DNA of 64,000 nt, taken from positions 1 to 64,000 of the forward strand of contig NZ_CAIWTY010000061.1 of the NCBI RefSeq assembly GCF_903915725.1, written 5' to 3'. Numbering within the stretch: the stretch's first letter is position 1; every line of letters starts with the position of its first letter. The position numbers and the translations under genes were made by a program. The notes below the pieces were generated by a model. The model was not told the origin of the DNA. It saw nothing but the letters and a program-made list of their open reading frames with translations, and did no database searches. This DNA is from an uncultured Rhodopila sp. (GTDB taxonomy: Bacteria > Pseudomonadota > Alphaproteobacteria > Acetobacterales > Acetobacteraceae). This document shows, piece after piece, positions 20,078 to 26,088 of the stretch.

Positions 20078-20323
20078 CTAAGCCGTCTTCGTGCCGACCA
20101 GTCTGGCCAGATCGCCGACGCAGCGGAGGCTGTCGAGTTCGCGGGTGTTGAACTTGATGCCCCACTTCTCCTCGCTCGCCATAATGATCTCGATCTGCTT
20201 GAAGCTGTCCCAGCCCTGTACCTGCTTGGCCGTCAGTTCCGGAGTCAGCACGATATCGTCGCGCAGGAACACGTCGTGGAAGATTTCGGTCAGCGCGGCG
20301 TAGATTTCGGCTTCCGTCGCCAT
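20078..20323 (-). CDS. Acyl carrier protein (discrete, FkbH-associated)
   Basis: 81 residues. The phosphopantetheine attachment site is GWDSFKQIEIIMASEE, serine at about residue 40; the usual DSL is DSF here. Four-helix ACP pattern with an acidic second helix. It starts 4 bases after the stop of the upstream FkbH-like gene and is certainly cotranscribed with it. Housekeeping AcpP is normally next to fabF, so this is more likely a dedicated carrier, for example for a glyceryl group loaded by its partner. Confidence 0.92.
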   Translation of the reverse strand: MATEAEIYAALTEIFHDVFLRDDIVLTPELTAKQVQGWDSFKQIEIIMASEEKWGIKFNTRELDSLRCVGDLARLVGTKTA

Positions 20324-20327
20324 CAGT

Positions 20328-22214
20328 TCAGCCCTCGGTCACGTGAATGAATGTTTCGGCGGGTGTGAACCCCTCCAGATTCAGGACGTTTCGGTTGCCG
20401 CCCGCCTGATCGGTCTCCATAACCGTAAATCCCAGCCTGGCATAGTGATCCTTCACCATGGCATTCTTCTTGGTTGGAATGTACTCGCCGATCAACCGTT
20501 TCGCCCCGAGTTTCAAGGCCTCCCGGGCGATCAGGTTCAGGGTTGTCGGCTCCACCTGCCGTCCCAGCACGCGGCAACTCATGAGCCAGGTGTCGATCAG
20601 CAGGTCCTTGTTGTCCTGCAACCGCCCGATGACGATGGCGATGATGCCGTTGTCGCCGAACCGGTCGGTCAGCCGCAATTGCAGGCCGAACGCATCAGCA
20701 TCCGCCATCACCGCGACCACGTCCTCATCGGTGTAGCGCCGTGTGGTCAGGTTGAACTGGTTGGATTTGTTGATCAACTGCACAATGCGCTGCAGGCCGA
20801 TGCGATCGAAACCTTTCCAGATCAGAGTCATCTCCAGCCCGCGCAGATAGGACGGCAGATCGGTCACCGCCGCCTTCAGCGCGTCGCGCGCCTTGTTGCC
20901 CTGGTACTGGCTGGTCCGGTCGCGGTCATCGTCGGTGACCGCGAGGCCCTCGAAATAGCCGCCATCGGCCAGCGCCACCGGATAGCCTGTGGGATCGTCC
21001 GACACCTCCGGCACCGCGACCATCGGCAGTTCCTGCCGCACCAGGTTGCGCTCGAACGGGTTGTCGTCGATGAAGCACAGCGCATCCAGGCCGATGTTCA
21101 ACTCCTGCGCGATCGCCCGGATATTGTCGGCCTTGTTCTGCCAGTTGGCGACGAAGCTGGCGATGTCGCCGCGCTTCAGCACCATGTCGGGATGTTTCTC
21201 GAACGGCTCCAGCGCGTTCGCCTCGTCGTTCTTGGAGCACACCGCGAGGATCACCCCCCGCCGGCTGAGTTCGCGGGCGTACTCCTGGAACGCGGTGTAG
21301 GCTTCGCCCAGCGGGCTGCCCTGGCCGAGTGCTATGCCCTCCAGCCCGTCATCGCCGATGACGCCGCCCCACAGCGTGTTGTCGAGGTCCATCACCAGGC
21401 ACTTGAAGGACCGTCCCTGCTTCGCCGCTAGCCAACGGCCGACAAGATCGCCGTAGAGCGGCGCGGCGGTGGGCGTCACCTCCTGCTTGGAGCGGTGCCA
21501 CAGCGCCGGGTCGTGCCACTTGCCGATTCCGTCGCGGGCGGCGCGATCGTCCACCGCCAGGATATCGACGGCCTCCTGCTCGGCCATTACGCGGACGGCC
21601 TGGTTCAGCCGGGTTACGAACCAGGCGCGCGAGCCGGGCAGGCGGTGTTCGTTGTTGCCGAGCACCGTCAGATGCACCGGCAGGATCGCCTGCTGGATGA
21701 TCGGGCAGCGGAACGCCTCCCGCGCCAGGCGCCAGGTTTCGCTGATGCGGCCTTGCATCTCCTCCAGCGCGGCATCGGCGGTCGCGGCATCCATGCCGGC
21801 CGTCACGCCGGAGGTCAGGTGATAGGCATCCAGCGCCAGCAGGATCGCCGTCGGCTGGAAGTCGTGCAGCGCGGAATCGCTTTCCGACAGCTCCTGCAAA
21901 TACTGGCCATAGTCGGTTTCATAGGTGTCGATCCAGATGCCGCGGCGCAGGCCGGCGACGCGGATGCCGGGCAGCAGATGCGTCAGCGTGGAGGAGCCGA
22001 GCACCGCGAGCCGCACCTTCTTCGTGGCCAGTGATTCGGGTCCGCACGGCAGCACGCGGCGCACGGTTTCGTCCAGCGCATTGGTCAGGACGAAGTTCAG
22101 CCGGGCGTTCGCCAGGGCGACCGCGGAGTCCCAGGCGGTGGCCGGTTCGGCCGCAAGCGCCCGCAGCCGCTGGCGCCAGTCCGGGATCGCCGGCAGCCAA
22201 TGAAGATCAGTCAC
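20328..22214 (-). CDS. FkbH-like HAD-IIIC family protein
   Basis: 628 residues. An SGNH-like N-terminal domain (about 60-260; VRLAVLGSSTLTHLLPGIRV) precedes a HAD domain of subclass IIIC with the nucleophile motif CLVMDLDNTLWGGVIGDDG (about 285-303) and the later FIDDNPFERNLV. A GNAT-like C-terminal domain follows, about 480-628. FkbH proteins take a glyceryl unit from 1,3-bisphosphoglycerate and load it on an ACP, in tetronate and methoxymalonyl-type pathways, or act in surface glycan modification. GTG at 22214 is preferred: GGAGGA sits just before it, and the 26 upstream codons are unlike the family. Operon with the ACP. Confidence 0.9.
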   Translation of the reverse strand: MTDLHWLPAIPDWRQRLRALAAEPATAWDSAVALANARLNFVLTNALDETVRRVLPCGPESLATKKVRLAVLGSSTLTHLLPGIRVAGLRRGIWIDTYETDYGQYLQELSESDSALHDFQPTAILLALDAYHLTSGVTAGMDAATADAALEEMQGRISETWRLAREAFRCPIIQQAILPVHLTVLGNNEHRLPGSRAWFVTRLNQAVRVMAEQEAVDILAVDDRAARDGIGKWHDPALWHRSKQEVTPTAAPLYGDLVGRWLAAKQGRSFKCLVMDLDNTLWGGVIGDDGLEGIALGQGSPLGEAYTAFQEYARELSRRGVILAVCSKNDEANALEPFEKHPDMVLKRGDIASFVANWQNKADNIRAIAQELNIGLDALCFIDDNPFERNLVRQELPMVAVPEVSDDPTGYPVALADGGYFEGLAVTDDDRDRTSQYQGNKARDALKAAVTDLPSYLRGLEMTLIWKGFDRIGLQRIVQLINKSNQFNLTTRRYTDEDVVAVMADADAFGLQLRLTDRFGDNGIIAIVIGRLQDNKDLLIDTWLMSCRVLGRQVEPTTLNLIAREALKLGAKRLIGEYIPTKKNAMVKDHYARLGFTVMETDQAGGNRNVLNLEGFTPAETFIHVTEG

Positions 22215-22341
22215 GGGTCCTCCGATACGCGGTCCGCCGGAAACATTCTGCGGCGCGGCATCCGGGTACCACTCACGATACGATGAGATCAATTGAAAAG
22301 CCCCGGCAACCGATAGCCCCGGTATGGGGATCGTCGCGTCA

Positions 22342-23742
22342 TTACAAATGCGGCGGTCTCAATTTCACCCCCGCGGCATCGAACGCTCGAAACAGGTCAA
22401 TGCGTTCGGCCTGGCGCAGCGGACGCAATGGCAAGCGCACCCGATCGCATCCGGGGCGGCCGAGATGCCGGGCGAGTAGCGCCTTCAGGGCGGGAACCAT
22501 GGGACGCGAGCGGAGCGCCTTGGACACCGTTTCCACCGCGCGGTGGATGTCCTGGCCCGGAGCCGGCCAGGACGGGTCTATCACTTGCCTGCACGGACGG
22601 CCGAGCAGGTTGGCCCCGGGGCTTATCAACCCGGAACCACCCGCGTTGACCAGATCGCCCAGCATCGTTTCGTCGGTCGTGTAGACTTCGAAGCGGGAGC
22701 CGCTGAAGCGGTCAAGCGCCGCCAGCCCCAACTTGCAGCCTGCGGTCTCGTCGCGGATGCCTGTCAGTCGCTCGGGCACCTGTTGCATGAATGCTTCGAA
22801 CGCTGTCAGGCAGGCGTCGATCGCACGGTGGCCTACGGAGAAAGACAGGTAGACGCTGAGGGCGGCAGGGAGACGCAGAATGAGGTCTCGCGTCGCATCG
22901 GGGATGACATCGCGGGGCATCATTTTCCCGGATGCCGCTACGGAGACAAGCACCCCGCGAATACCAAGCTCGCCGGCATGCTCCGCAACGCGAACCACAT
23001 CGGCGAAACCGGCTGTTCCGATGCCGAGCAGTATTTTCGATGGCGGCACGCCCCGCTCAACAAGCCCTTCCAGAAGAACCGAACGTTCACGTAACGTCAG
23101 GGTGGCGGCCTCGCCGGTCTTGTCGAGGATTGCCAGGCTGTGACAACCGTTGCTCAACAGCCAGAAGCAATGGTCCGCCATCAGGTCGCGATCGATCTGT
23201 CCCGAGGCATCGAAGAAGGTCGGAACGCACGCGCTGATCCCGCCAAACATCGCCGTGCGCCAACGAAGATGCCGCTCATGTTGGAAAGGCTGCGCCGGCC
23301 AATCCACGGTATGGAACTCCATGAAGCCAGCCTTGGTATCGGGTATTGCACGGCCGGCGACGGAAATCCCGGCCTCGCGCACCGAAGCCGCGCGGCCGGA
23401 CACCAAGGGGTGCCACCACTCCAGGTCTCGTGCTTCATGGACCATGCGATAAGCACAGGTTGAGGGCAACTCGAGATCAAAGATGTTCTCTGCTGTGTGC
23501 AGATTGCAGATTACGGGCAGATTGAGCCGGTTCGGATAGTCCTTGCAATGGCCGGTGGCGGTGTCCAAAATTTTGCAGGCCACATCTAAGGAATAGATTT
23601 TCAGTGTATCGTCCGCCTTGATCTTTTGCAGGCAACACCTTCCGCATCCGTCGCATAGCGAATCCCATTCCGCCGCGGTCATCTCGTCAAGCCGCTTGCG
23701 CTGCCAAAATGGTCGCGGGTCGGGGGCACTACATGCGGTCAA
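22342..23742 (-). CDS. Fusion of a YcgN-type cysteine-cluster protein and a DapA-fold domain
   Basis: 466 residues in one uninterrupted frame, TTG start with AAGGAA 8 bases upstream. Residues 10-155 are a complete UPF0260/YcgN protein: FWQRKRLDEMTAAEWDSLC, the cluster CDGCGRCC (Cys30, 33, 36, 37), further cysteines at 56, 66, 79 and 96, STCAYRMVHE, and the family-ending HTVDWP. Residues 164-466 follow the dihydrodipicolinate synthase/N-acetylneuraminate lyase barrel: FGGISACVPTFFDASGQID, LDKTGEAATLTLRERSVLLE, ILLGIGTAG and SGLISPGANL. By eye the catalytic lysine of GIKEA is Arg330 (GIRDET), and the TTGE threonine pair is KTGE; a tyrosine remains near 298. A Schiff-base aldolase activity is therefore doubtful. 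I know of no such fusion. Confidence 0.85.
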   Translation of the reverse strand: MTACSAPDPRPFWQRKRLDEMTAAEWDSLCDGCGRCCLQKIKADDTLKIYSLDVACKILDTATGHCKDYPNRLNLPVICNLHTAENIFDLELPSTCAYRMVHEARDLEWWHPLVSGRAASVREAGISVAGRAIPDTKAGFMEFHTVDWPAQPFQHERHLRWRTAMFGGISACVPTFFDASGQIDRDLMADHCFWLLSNGCHSLAILDKTGEAATLTLRERSVLLEGLVERGVPPSKILLGIGTAGFADVVRVAEHAGELGIRGVLVSVAASGKMMPRDVIPDATRDLILRLPAALSVYLSFSVGHRAIDACLTAFEAFMQQVPERLTGIRDETAGCKLGLAALDRFSGSRFEVYTTDETMLGDLVNAGGSGLISPGANLLGRPCRQVIDPSWPAPGQDIHRAVETVSKALRSRPMVPALKALLARHLGRPGCDRVRLPLRPLRQAERIDLFRAFDAAGVKLRPPHL

Positions 23743-23810
23743 GATGAAATTTCCTTCTGCGTCTGCAATATGCCCTCAGTGATACAGCATCGTTCCTCGC
23801 AATGCCGGTT

Positions 23811-23851
23811 TCAAAAAAAAACCAGGACCCCGTGAAGGGTCCTGGCTCCGT
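23811..23851 (-). terminator. Rho-independent terminator of the Hint gene, copy 2
   Basis: On the minus strand the sequence reads CCAGGACCC, loop TTCACG, GGGTCCTGG, then nine T residues. A 9-base-pair GC stem with a T tract is a textbook intrinsic terminator, 25 bases past the Hint stop codon. It is the only clear one in the window. Confidence 0.9.
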
Positions 23852-23875: not shown

Positions 23876-24931
23876 TCAGGCGACGAGGCGAGCCTTGTCG
23901 TCATACAGCGGATACTGGTCGACCGGCGTGCAGCAAACGGTCAACATCGTTGCGCCGGTAACGTTTTCCCACGGGATGGTTGCCGTGCCGTCAGTCCAGC
24001 GCGAGATCGACTTGCCCTGGCCTTCAACGTCGTACCAACCGTCCTGCAGACCGGGATGGTCGGCAGAGAGAATAGTTTCGGCATTTTCCGAACGGATGGC
24101 TATCCAATTGACGCAAACGCCGAGGCGGCGCGTGTCACGGTTGGTGGCCAACATCTTGTCGGAAGGGATGCAGAAGCGCGACGCCAGGGTGACGGAGGAG
24201 ACACCCGCCGGCACCATGAACACGTAGCGGGAGTCGCGCGCCGATGTCGGCACGATCACCTCGCCATCCGCGACGAGGCGGATGTCGGCGTTCTCAACCG
24301 TGATGATTTCCGGGATCGCAAAGCCGATCGAGACGGAACGGTCGGCCAGGCGGGTCCAGATCGCCTCGACCTCGGTTGCGTTCGCCAGCGGCGCGCAGGC
24401 ATCAGTCAGCCAACGTTCAGAGTGCGCGTCGAACTTGAAGGTCGGGTGCAGTTGCCGCGGTGCGCCGGAATTGTCGAACACGCTGCGATTGCCGGTATCG
24501 AGGTAGCTCTCGGCAGCAGTGTTCTCAGCGAGCAGGATACCGTGTTTTTCCAGCTCGAGGTGATAGTAGGTGAACGGGGCGTGTGCGCGCTCACTGACGA
24601 TAGATCCGCCGTTGACCAGCAACTTGGCCGCGACGCACCGGTCGTCAAGGATCAGGCAATGCTCGGGCGAGAGAAACAAGTCCCGAACCGGCTCGTTCTC
24701 GGCAATCGCACCCGCACGGATGCGGATGGGCGCAGCGTCCTCAACATAGGCATGAGAAGACAGATCGACGGCAGTAAAGCCGATCCACTTCACAGGCTCC
24801 ATGACCTCCTCACCGCCCCGGATCACCGCGACCGCGTCACCTGCGGATATCGTTTCGACAGCTTGTTCGCCGCGGGCTGTCCGGATCCGGACACCTTGCA
24901 TATAGCAGCCGCCGCTATGACCATTACTCAT
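23876..24931 (-). CDS. Hint-domain protein (Hedgehog/intein type), copy 2
   Basis: 351 residues, highly similar to the protein at 934-2019 across its length. The Hint nucleophile position is Cys9 (GGCYMQGVRIRTARGEQAV) and SPEHCL is at about 88-93. The same blocks recur: GGSIVSER, HAPFTYYHLEL, AESYLDTGNR, SRFCIPSDKM and NWIAIRS. The leader before Cys9 is only eight residues, whereas copy 1 has eighteen. GAGGA 7 bases before ATG supports the start. Second gene of a unit with the PEP-CTERM gene 38 bases upstream; an intrinsic terminator follows. Confidence 0.9.
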   Translation of the reverse strand: MSNGHSGGCYMQGVRIRTARGEQAVETISAGDAVAVIRGGEEVMEPVKWIGFTAVDLSSHAYVEDAAPIRIRAGAIAENEPVRDLFLSPEHCLILDDRCVAAKLLVNGGSIVSERAHAPFTYYHLELEKHGILLAENTAAESYLDTGNRSVFDNSGAPRQLHPTFKFDAHSERWLTDACAPLANATEVEAIWTRLADRSVSIGFAIPEIITVENADIRLVADGEVIVPTSARDSRYVFMVPAGVSSVTLASRFCIPSDKMLATNRDTRRLGVCVNWIAIRSENAETILSADHPGLQDGWYDVEGQGKSISRWTDGTATIPWENVTGATMLTVCCTPVDQYPLYDDKARLVA

Positions 24932-24969
24932 TTTTTGTCCTCATGCTGAAAAATGCTTCGATCCCGCGC

Positions 24970-25647
24970 TCAGGCGGCCTTACGGCGGCGCAGCAGGCCC
25001 AGACCCGCGAAGCCCATTCCGAGCAGCGCGATCGAAGCGGGTTCCGGCACGACGGACAATTCATAGGGCCCATAGCCGGGACCGTTAGCGTAGGTAACGA
25101 CCGGCCCGGTAGTCGAGCCATCGAGGTAATTGCTGATATAGCCCTGGCCGGCCGTGCCGATACCGCTGGCATCGCCAATATATTGCCACTCGACCGACGA
25201 GCCTGTGCCGGCGACCAACGCCACCCAATATTCGCCATTGGTGCTGACGCTGGTGTTTTCCACATTGAACGAAATGGGATTGTCGGCAGCGGTCAGCGAC
25301 GAGTCCGATACGGTCCCGAGGAGTTGGCTGCCGGCGGTGCTTCCGCCGACGAAGGCTGCGATCGGATTTCCCGCAACGCCGAGGCTTCCACCGCTATTGT
25401 CGTCCGGCACGAGGTAGACTGATGAGATGCCTCCGTCGCCCGCATTTCCGGCCGTCAGGTCCAACGTCACGGTGAAAGAGTTGATCGGCGAGTAGAACGA
25501 GACGCCCATCACGGTGGTGGCGTCACCGGCCGGGCCATCAGTGCCCGAAAACGTTCCGAAGTTGATCGTATCGTAGATGGTGCCGGCGTGTGCGACGTTC
25601 GCTGACAGCAGCGCCATGGCGCTGAAAGCGAGAATTCGGGACTTCAT
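24970..25647 (-). CDS. PEP-CTERM sorting domain protein, copy 2
   Basis: 225 residues. Signal peptide MKSRILAFSAMALLSANVAHA, then a glycine/serine/threonine-rich beta domain with STNGEYWVALVAGTGSSVEW, then the C-terminal signal VVPEPASIALLGMGFAGLGL and RRRKAA. ATG at 25647 is chosen over a longer frame to 25797 because AGGAGAG precedes it and it starts the signal peptide exactly. The body resembles copy 1 near GEYWV and the G-I-G-T-A-G-Q-G-Y-I stretch. Exported and probably anchored by an exosortase encoded elsewhere. Confidence 0.92.
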   Translation of the reverse strand: MKSRILAFSAMALLSANVAHAGTIYDTINFGTFSGTDGPAGDATTVMGVSFYSPINSFTVTLDLTAGNAGDGGISSVYLVPDDNSGGSLGVAGNPIAAFVGGSTAGSQLLGTVSDSSLTAADNPISFNVENTSVSTNGEYWVALVAGTGSSVEWQYIGDASGIGTAGQGYISNYLDGSTTGPVVTYANGPGYGPYELSVVPEPASIALLGMGFAGLGLLRRRKAA

Positions 25648-26088
25648 GACCGCTCTCCTGAAAAAATTAGCCAACTCCCTGGATGCAAGCGACGGGCCAC
25701 GGCGAAAAACCCAACCATTATAATAACATGGTATCGTGCCACCGGTCAGATAACGCAAACGTGTAAAGTATTCCGACACTGCCGAACGCGGTCTCACCCA
25801 TGTGCCAGGATAAGCGCTGCGGTGTTGTCGTCACACCATGCGGCCAACGGGCGAAGCGAGCGGCGCCGGTGGGATCTGGCGCAAGATCCCGTGTTTCTCC
25901 GTTCCCGCCGATCGGCGCTTTTACGGTTTCAGCGGTCCAGCCGGTGCGTCAATCTCGCGCGTGTCGGAAAACTTTACACTTTGGGTCGCGGCGTTCGGCG
26001 CCAGGCGACCGCTCGGCCCCGGACAGGCAACGGGGCACGCAGCCCGGCCTTTCAGGCCAGCGAGCGGATGGACAGTCGAGTACTCAAT
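25648..26088. other. 441-base spacer upstream of PEP-CTERM copy 2
   Basis: Probably carries the promoter of the PEP-CTERM/Hint unit near its left end and the 3' end region of yihY at its right end. Open frames here have no ribosome binding site or family resemblance. Confidence 0.4.
25717..25722 (-). promoter_or_regulatory. Candidate -10 element of the PEP-CTERM/Hint unit 2
   Basis: On the minus strand an exact TATAAT lies 70 bases upstream of the PEP-CTERM start, in a locally AT-rich stretch. No good -35 hexamer is found at 16-18 bases, so the call is weak. Confidence 0.3.

Follow-up and report, generated by a model that had tools for sequence, protein, structure and literature searches.

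A conserved protein family joining a YcgN cysteine-cluster domain to a DHDPS-like barrel that lacks the Schiff-base lysine

The window analyzed here is a stretch of 64,000 nucleotides from an uncultured Rhodopila sp. (contig NZ_CAIWTY010000061.1 of assembly GCF_903915725.1). On its minus strand lies a single gene that joins a YcgN (UPF0260) domain to a barrel resembling dihydrodipicolinate synthase (DHDPS). The gene, its parts and its surroundings are as follows.

22342..23742, minus strand: fused gene, YcgN domain plus DHDPS-like barrel, 466 aa, TTG start
23752..23758, minus strand: AGAAGGA, probable ribosome binding site for the fused gene (from the sequence)
23287..23715, minus strand: YcgN/UPF0260 domain, residues 10-152 (NCBIfam; eight cysteines in 36/36 fused sequences)
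23239..23298, minus strand: linker, residues 149-168 (sequence comparison)
22360..23253, minus strand: DHDPS-like (beta/alpha)8 barrel, residues 164-461 (Pfam, structure model)
23110..23124, minus strand: D-K-T-G-E, residues 207-211, in place of G-T-T-G-E (DapA Thr44/Thr45; alignment)
22843..22845, minus strand: S300 at the DapA Tyr133 position, Ser in 36/36 (alignment)
22747..22755, minus strand: R330-D331-E332 on strand beta-6, R330 at the position of the Schiff-base lysine (alignment, model)
22300..23814, minus strand: single-gene insertion relative to close genus mates (approximate bounds, set by the ends of DNA similarity to L053 on either side)
23818..23849, minus strand: terminator-like hairpin 3' of the upstream Hint gene, at the upstream edge of the insertion (chance yields about as many such sites in the scan)
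23876-24931: Hint gene, upstream neighbor of the fused gene
20328-22292: FkbH
20078-20323: ACP

A sequence-only reading of this DNA had described one continuous frame running from the YcgN half into the barrel, with a good ribosome binding site at the YcgN end only, and both points hold. The frame is free of stops over 466 codons, from the TTG at 23742 to the stop at 22342. AGAAGGA is found 9 bases 5' of this TTG, and no similar site was seen in the 20 bases 5' of the ATG at residue 165, which is the expected start of an unfused barrel. The TTG position corresponds to a methionine in 29 of 35 aligned fused relatives, 28 of which start exactly at that residue.

Compared with its close genus mates, the present genome holds about 1.5 kb of additional DNA between the Hint gene and FkbH, and this DNA is filled by the fused gene alone. 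DNA similarity to the closest mate, L053, spans 24000-23815 and starts again at 22299, and that to L054 spans 24000-23880 and starts again at 22313. FkbH was matched in all 33 genus genomes and is followed by ACP in 18 of 19 genus-mate loci (the L067 locus ends too soon), such that the FkbH-ACP arrangement is kept in the genus. An operon linking the fused gene to FkbH and ACP was considered and rejected because the fused gene was matched in none of the 19 FkbH loci, a few of which have little sequence upstream of FkbH. Only one of the 33 genus genomes carries the fused gene, and none of the 32 genus mates has one. Third-position GC is 0.71 in the fused gene and 0.85-0.86 in FkbH, ACP and BrkB. 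These values suggest a foreign origin for the fused gene, which is suggested rather than firm because the Hint gene (0.75) and a PEP-CTERM gene (0.70) are also low.

Several minor features of the flanks were recorded. The Hint_2 domain protein lies next to the PEP-CTERM protein (window positions 23876-25797), and relatives of the Hint gene are found directly upstream of FkbH in L053, L054, L055, L057, L058 and L061. The true start of FkbH is probably GTG 22214 and not TTG 22292, about 130 bases past the fused gene. A block 5' of FkbH at 22216-22299 (CGTGAGTGGTACCCGGATGC...) is similar in the genus mates L053 and L054 and may belong to the FkbH-ACP promoter.

The sequence-only reading had called for a search for the same two-domain order elsewhere, and a protein search of 5.8 billion sequences, which gave 49 matches, supplied it. 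Thirty-five relatives (P0003-P0037) contain both halves and are 49-62% identical to the query; together with the query they make up the 36 fused sequences referred to throughout. One of them, P0037, is named as a Proteobacteria MAG. The set retains P0036, which is cut short at 389 aa, and P0006, P0011, P0012 and P0019, which start at residue 21. Alignment A1 leaves out P0002, the protein of the window itself, and nine distant matches that have DHDPS only (P0042-P0050). P0040 is in A1 and is not counted among the 36; nor are P0038, P0039 and P0041, apparently barrel-only matches that start at internal methionines and are included in alignment A2 only. W148 and G168 are separated by a linker of 19 residues in 35 of the 36 fused sequences and of 18 in the other. 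The fusion is thus a real and conserved protein family, forming one clade, and not an artifact.

No other uninterrupted fusion was seen in genome draws at the level of the genus (33 genomes), family (397), class (385), order (395) and phylum (349), which overlap and each carry a score limit; apart from the window's own match, these draws gave pairs separated by one stop. Likewise, none was seen among 338 family genomes with P0015 as the query or in the orders of G059 and G087 (3 and 1 genomes), and among 72,556 plasmid records no place covered 80% of the query. A contig scan with two narrow patterns gave two distant barrels only, at 23% and 33% identity.

The family is apparently undescribed, in line with the sequence-only reading, which knew of no description of this architecture. 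Phrase searches of open-licence literature found no paper containing both YcgN and dihydrodipicolinate synthase, and none on dihydrodipicolinate synthase together with pseudoenzyme or, by other phrases, on lysine-less members (a further phrase matched PMC3369909 and PMC3188589). Automatic names given by JGI include both domains for several matches; the architecture has therefore been recorded by machine, and no description was found in these searches. The same literature gave no established function for YcgN, a term that occurs in 18 papers and in no title or abstract among them. The name YcgN is also used for an unrelated Bacillus protein, and part of the YcgN literature concerns that protein.

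The N-terminal half is a recognizable YcgN domain. Pfam PF03692 matches residues 30-96 (E 1.5e-7, 32.4 bits against a cut-off of 23), and the NCBIfam YcgN model NF003501 matches residues 10-152 with 169.4 bits against a cut-off of 167, while the other ten of the eleven NCBIfam YcgN models matched scored under their cut-offs. The N-terminal 152 residues, eight conserved cysteines and a WWHPLVSG motif are held in common with YcgN/UPF0260 proteins (PF03692, NCBIfam PRK05170 series). The NCBIfam YcgN models are 104-164 residues long and therefore describe stand-alone proteins, whereas in the present gene the domain is joined to a barrel. The sequence-only reading had counted eight cysteines in the first 100 residues. 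There are nine (4, 30, 33, 36, 37, 56, 66, 79 and 96), and it is the last eight, comprising CxxCxxCC and four further cysteines, that are conserved in the family; all eight are present in 36/36 fused sequences and in 45/45 other YcgN rows of the alignment, which include P0040 and L033 (the latter without a neighboring barrel seen). The precomputed domains of P0013, P0018 and P0024 show no PF03692, yet their cysteines are kept.

Structural comparison of this half gave weak signals. The YcgN domain modeled alone had a pLDDT of 57.5, a poor model, and Foldseek returned three matches with a best E of 7.6; a sequence search of the PDB returned only two weak matches (E 0.12 and 0.51). Passages of a paper on the flagellin lysine methylase FliB (PMC8598068) describe a CX4CX3CC motif that binds [4Fe-4S], and there its authors liken this motif to the CX2CX2CC motif of PF03692. 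The FliB and YcgN motifs are similar with different spacing. By analogy with FliB, and given the conserved cysteines, the YcgN half may bind metal.

The C-terminal half has a (beta/alpha)8 fold in the structure model and matches PF00701, the DHDPS/N-acetylneuraminate lyase (NAL) superfamily, with an E of 2.3e-15. It is not a DapA by the TIGR00674 model, on which the fused protein scores 57.5 against a cut-off of 206.15 and the host's own, separate DapA scores 346.6. Passages of PMC3369909 give K161 as an active-site residue of DapA and Thr44, Tyr107 and Tyr133 as its catalytic triad. As the sequence-only reading had proposed by eye, the Schiff-base lysine is replaced by R330, which is placed there by alignment to 44 lysine-bearing relatives and the host DapA and sits on beta-strand 6 in the model; it is a GIKD motif that has been replaced, and not the GIKEA that had been named. 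In the 36 fused sequences, the site of Lys161 (E. coli DapA) is Arg in 34, Val in two and Lys in none, the valines (GIVDE) belonging to the sister sequences P0013 and P0018. The change from TTGE to KTGE was also correctly read, at residues 208-211 by the same alignment.

The losses at the two tyrosine sites are additional to the residues of that earlier reading. Serine occupies the Tyr133 site throughout the fused set. When aligned with the host DapA, the Tyr107 site falls at residue 271, and no tyrosine is found at 270, 271 or 272 in any of the 36, although the alignment is less sure there because the loop around 271 is poorly conserved. The Thr44 site is variable (Lys in 19/36, Thr in 1/36), and the Thr45 site is Ala in 28/36. 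In contrast, the lysine-bearing relatives keep both threonines, the tyrosine and the lysine in 44/44. From these losses, aldolase activity would be expected to have disappeared in the fused clade.

The nearest relatives of the fused gene in the trees are encoded as two genes. A YcgN gene and a lysine-bearing DHDPS-like gene are separate, adjacent and on one strand in 27 of 33 genus genomes, including the present one (C79). In the remaining six the pair members were not seen together, so the two genes are not strictly tied. The pair is also present in one genome of another genus in the family (L034). Among the 397 family genomes drawn, 14 in addition to the window's own have two in-frame genes, divided by one stop, that together match almost all of the query, as do 2 of 385 class genomes. 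In the genus mate G028, the separate YcgN and barrel genes share a frame and are divided by a single TAA. In all, unfused pairs were seen at L002/L003, L006-L015, L017-L032, L034 and L037-L051, which cover the genus, other genera of the family and two genomes of other families. No paper on this pair was found by phrase searches of open-licence literature.

Six 20-kb loci (L072-L077) were read for the surroundings of the pair, and both genes were matched in each. A Ysc84-like gene lies upstream in four of them (L072, L073, L076 and L077). In the case of L074, an M32 peptidase is found further upstream and YceG downstream, and the open reading frames of L075 differ again. The flanking genes vary, and no neighbor common to all six was seen.

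The unfused pair has the same two partners as the fused gene, adjacent and in the same order, and of the sequences in the two trees its members are the closest to the respective halves. It differs in that its genes are separate and its barrels intact at the four sites that the fused clade has lost. The 36 fused sequences without the lysine form one group among the lysine-bearing ones in the barrel tree (SH-aLRT 100, stem of 1.98 changes per column), and in the YcgN tree the same 36 lie on one side of a branch with a support of 99; both trees are quick searches that do not fix the exact attachment point. Identity between the lysine-free fused and lysine-bearing types is 53% for the YcgN halves and 34% for the barrels, indicating that the barrel changed most. 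The fused gene most likely derives from the conserved pair of YcgN and lysine-bearing DHDPS-like genes.

A search with P0040 returned 5008 matches at E 1e-60 or better, of which the best 120 were listed. These 120 include five YcgN fusions, one of which (P0054) looks frame-shifted and is not counted; in the other four, P0040 and P0051-P0053, the TTGE, Tyr and Lys are all kept. Named relatives of the unfused barrel among the same best 120 of 5008 include Acidisphaera sp. and a Rhodospirillales bacterium. Acidisphaera is a member of the Acetobacteraceae, which by itself would make this the probable family of the host. The four lysine-bearing fusions have the same domain order in one chain as the query, with linkers of 24-31 instead of 19 residues. 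P0051-P0053 are in neither tree. P0040 is in both and falls outside the lysine-free group in each, and it is therefore probably an independent fusion. The two domains have thus probably been fused at least twice, which suggests that YcgN and barrel act together.

Conservation of the barrel pocket, defined from secondary structure only as the strand ends, was compared between the two types. In the fused clade, strand-end entropy is 1.27 bits versus 1.34 bits elsewhere (permutation 3132/10000), and in the lysine-bearing set it is 0.60 versus 1.07 bits; the samples are small, at 32 and 16 sequences after thinning at 80%, and the lysine-bearing set is mostly one genus. In the fused clade, drift is seen in the loops that follow strands 4 and 5 (2.2 and 1.9 bits), where DapA has its Tyr107 and Tyr133. 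A pocket no more conserved than the rest of the barrel, together with these drifting loops, favors a pseudo-aldolase, and we give about an even chance to the reading that the gene encodes a YcgN protein carrying a non-catalytic barrel. The fused gene would have arisen from the conserved unit of a YcgN gene next to one for a lysine-bearing DHDPS-like enzyme. The YcgN half would carry out chemistry or sensing with an eight-cysteine metal or Fe-S site, and the barrel would serve it as a non-catalytic module that oligomerizes, binds a ligand or pairs with the lysine-bearing paralog of the same genome. That the barrel acts as a scaffold or ligand binder, or pairs with the paralog, is our inference. 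The sequence-only reading had offered a sensor or a non-Schiff-base enzyme; its premise, a lost lysine, stands within a real conserved fusion, and the role of the barrel itself leans to the non-catalytic side.

Two findings count against this reading as a whole, namely that the pair was not seen together in 6/33 genus genomes and that sites switched from one fixed residue to another, among them D207, S300, R330 and E332, lie at strand ends in 5 of 10 cases versus 21% expected (hypergeometric p 0.04). The switched sites would fit a rebuilt active site. The barrel could accordingly be a working enzyme of class II-like or other non-Schiff-base type, coupled to a metal or Fe-S YcgN domain, in which R330 would hold the substrate carboxylate and D207, E211, D331 and E332 would act as metal ligands or acid/base groups. 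Among sequences about 55% identical, D207, E211, D331, S300 and N378 are fixed in 36/36 and R330 and E332 are kept in 34/36. However, two sister sequences have Val in place of R330, the loops that follow strands 4 and 5 drift, the pocket overall is not more conserved than the rest, and E211, D331 and N378 are fixed in the lysine-bearing relatives too and need not be new. A rebuilt enzyme is thus possible, though on the unlikely side. A more specific version seems unlikely. In it, a class I aldolase partnered by YcgN would have become a fused Fe-S or metal enzyme with a rebuilt barrel site that lacks the lysine, its substrate anchored by R330 and its chemistry done by D207 and E332 with the older E211 and D331, and YcgN would be the redox or metal partner of an enzyme acting on 2-oxo acids.

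A Schiff base that is still made, now through K208 of the beta-2 loop or K273 of the beta-4 loop, is very improbable. K208 does align with Thr44, a catalytic-triad position of DapA in the passages of PMC3369909 noted above, but these pocket lysines are not conserved in the fused set (K208 in just 19/36, K273 in 18/36), and of the lysines that are, the model puts K236 (36/36) immediately ahead of strand beta-3 and K420 (35/36, with one gap) in a C-terminal helix. The copy in the present genome might instead be an import that is losing its function while the family works elsewhere. The presence of the fused gene in a single genus genome fits this, as do several family-conserved sites that are broken in the query: C172 (Ser in the other 35/36), R185 (Leu or Ile in the others) and a one-residue gap before LPST. 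The frame is nevertheless open over its full length, a ribosome binding site probably precedes it, none of the eight cysteines is missing, and the query's end branch is 0.45 and absent from the list of long branches, so decay appears decidedly unlikely. The sequence-only reading had feared an assembly error should related genomes encode the halves separately. They do, and the single TAA of G028 would fit a misassembly or one lost stop. But the separate pair is a distinct, lysine-bearing paralog that is also present in this genome, 35 other fused homologs have a near-constant linker, the flanks are syntenic with genus mates, and the P0002 cluster occurs on 3 contigs, the longest of 169,095 bases against 96,638 for the contig here. 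The probability of an artifact is close to negligible.

With the non-catalytic barrel as the favored reading, the lysine-free clade looks like a natural Schiff-base aldolase that has kept its fold and a fixed linker and lost its catalytic residues. The partner barrel, as a gene neighbor in most of the genus and in what are probably two fusions, makes the role of YcgN testable, and the lysine-bearing relative in the same genome is a ready control for the fused protein. Elsewhere in the class, a 1.9 Mb genome (G036; C46, C165) contains three YcgN-like matches, two of them side by side and one with internal stop codons.
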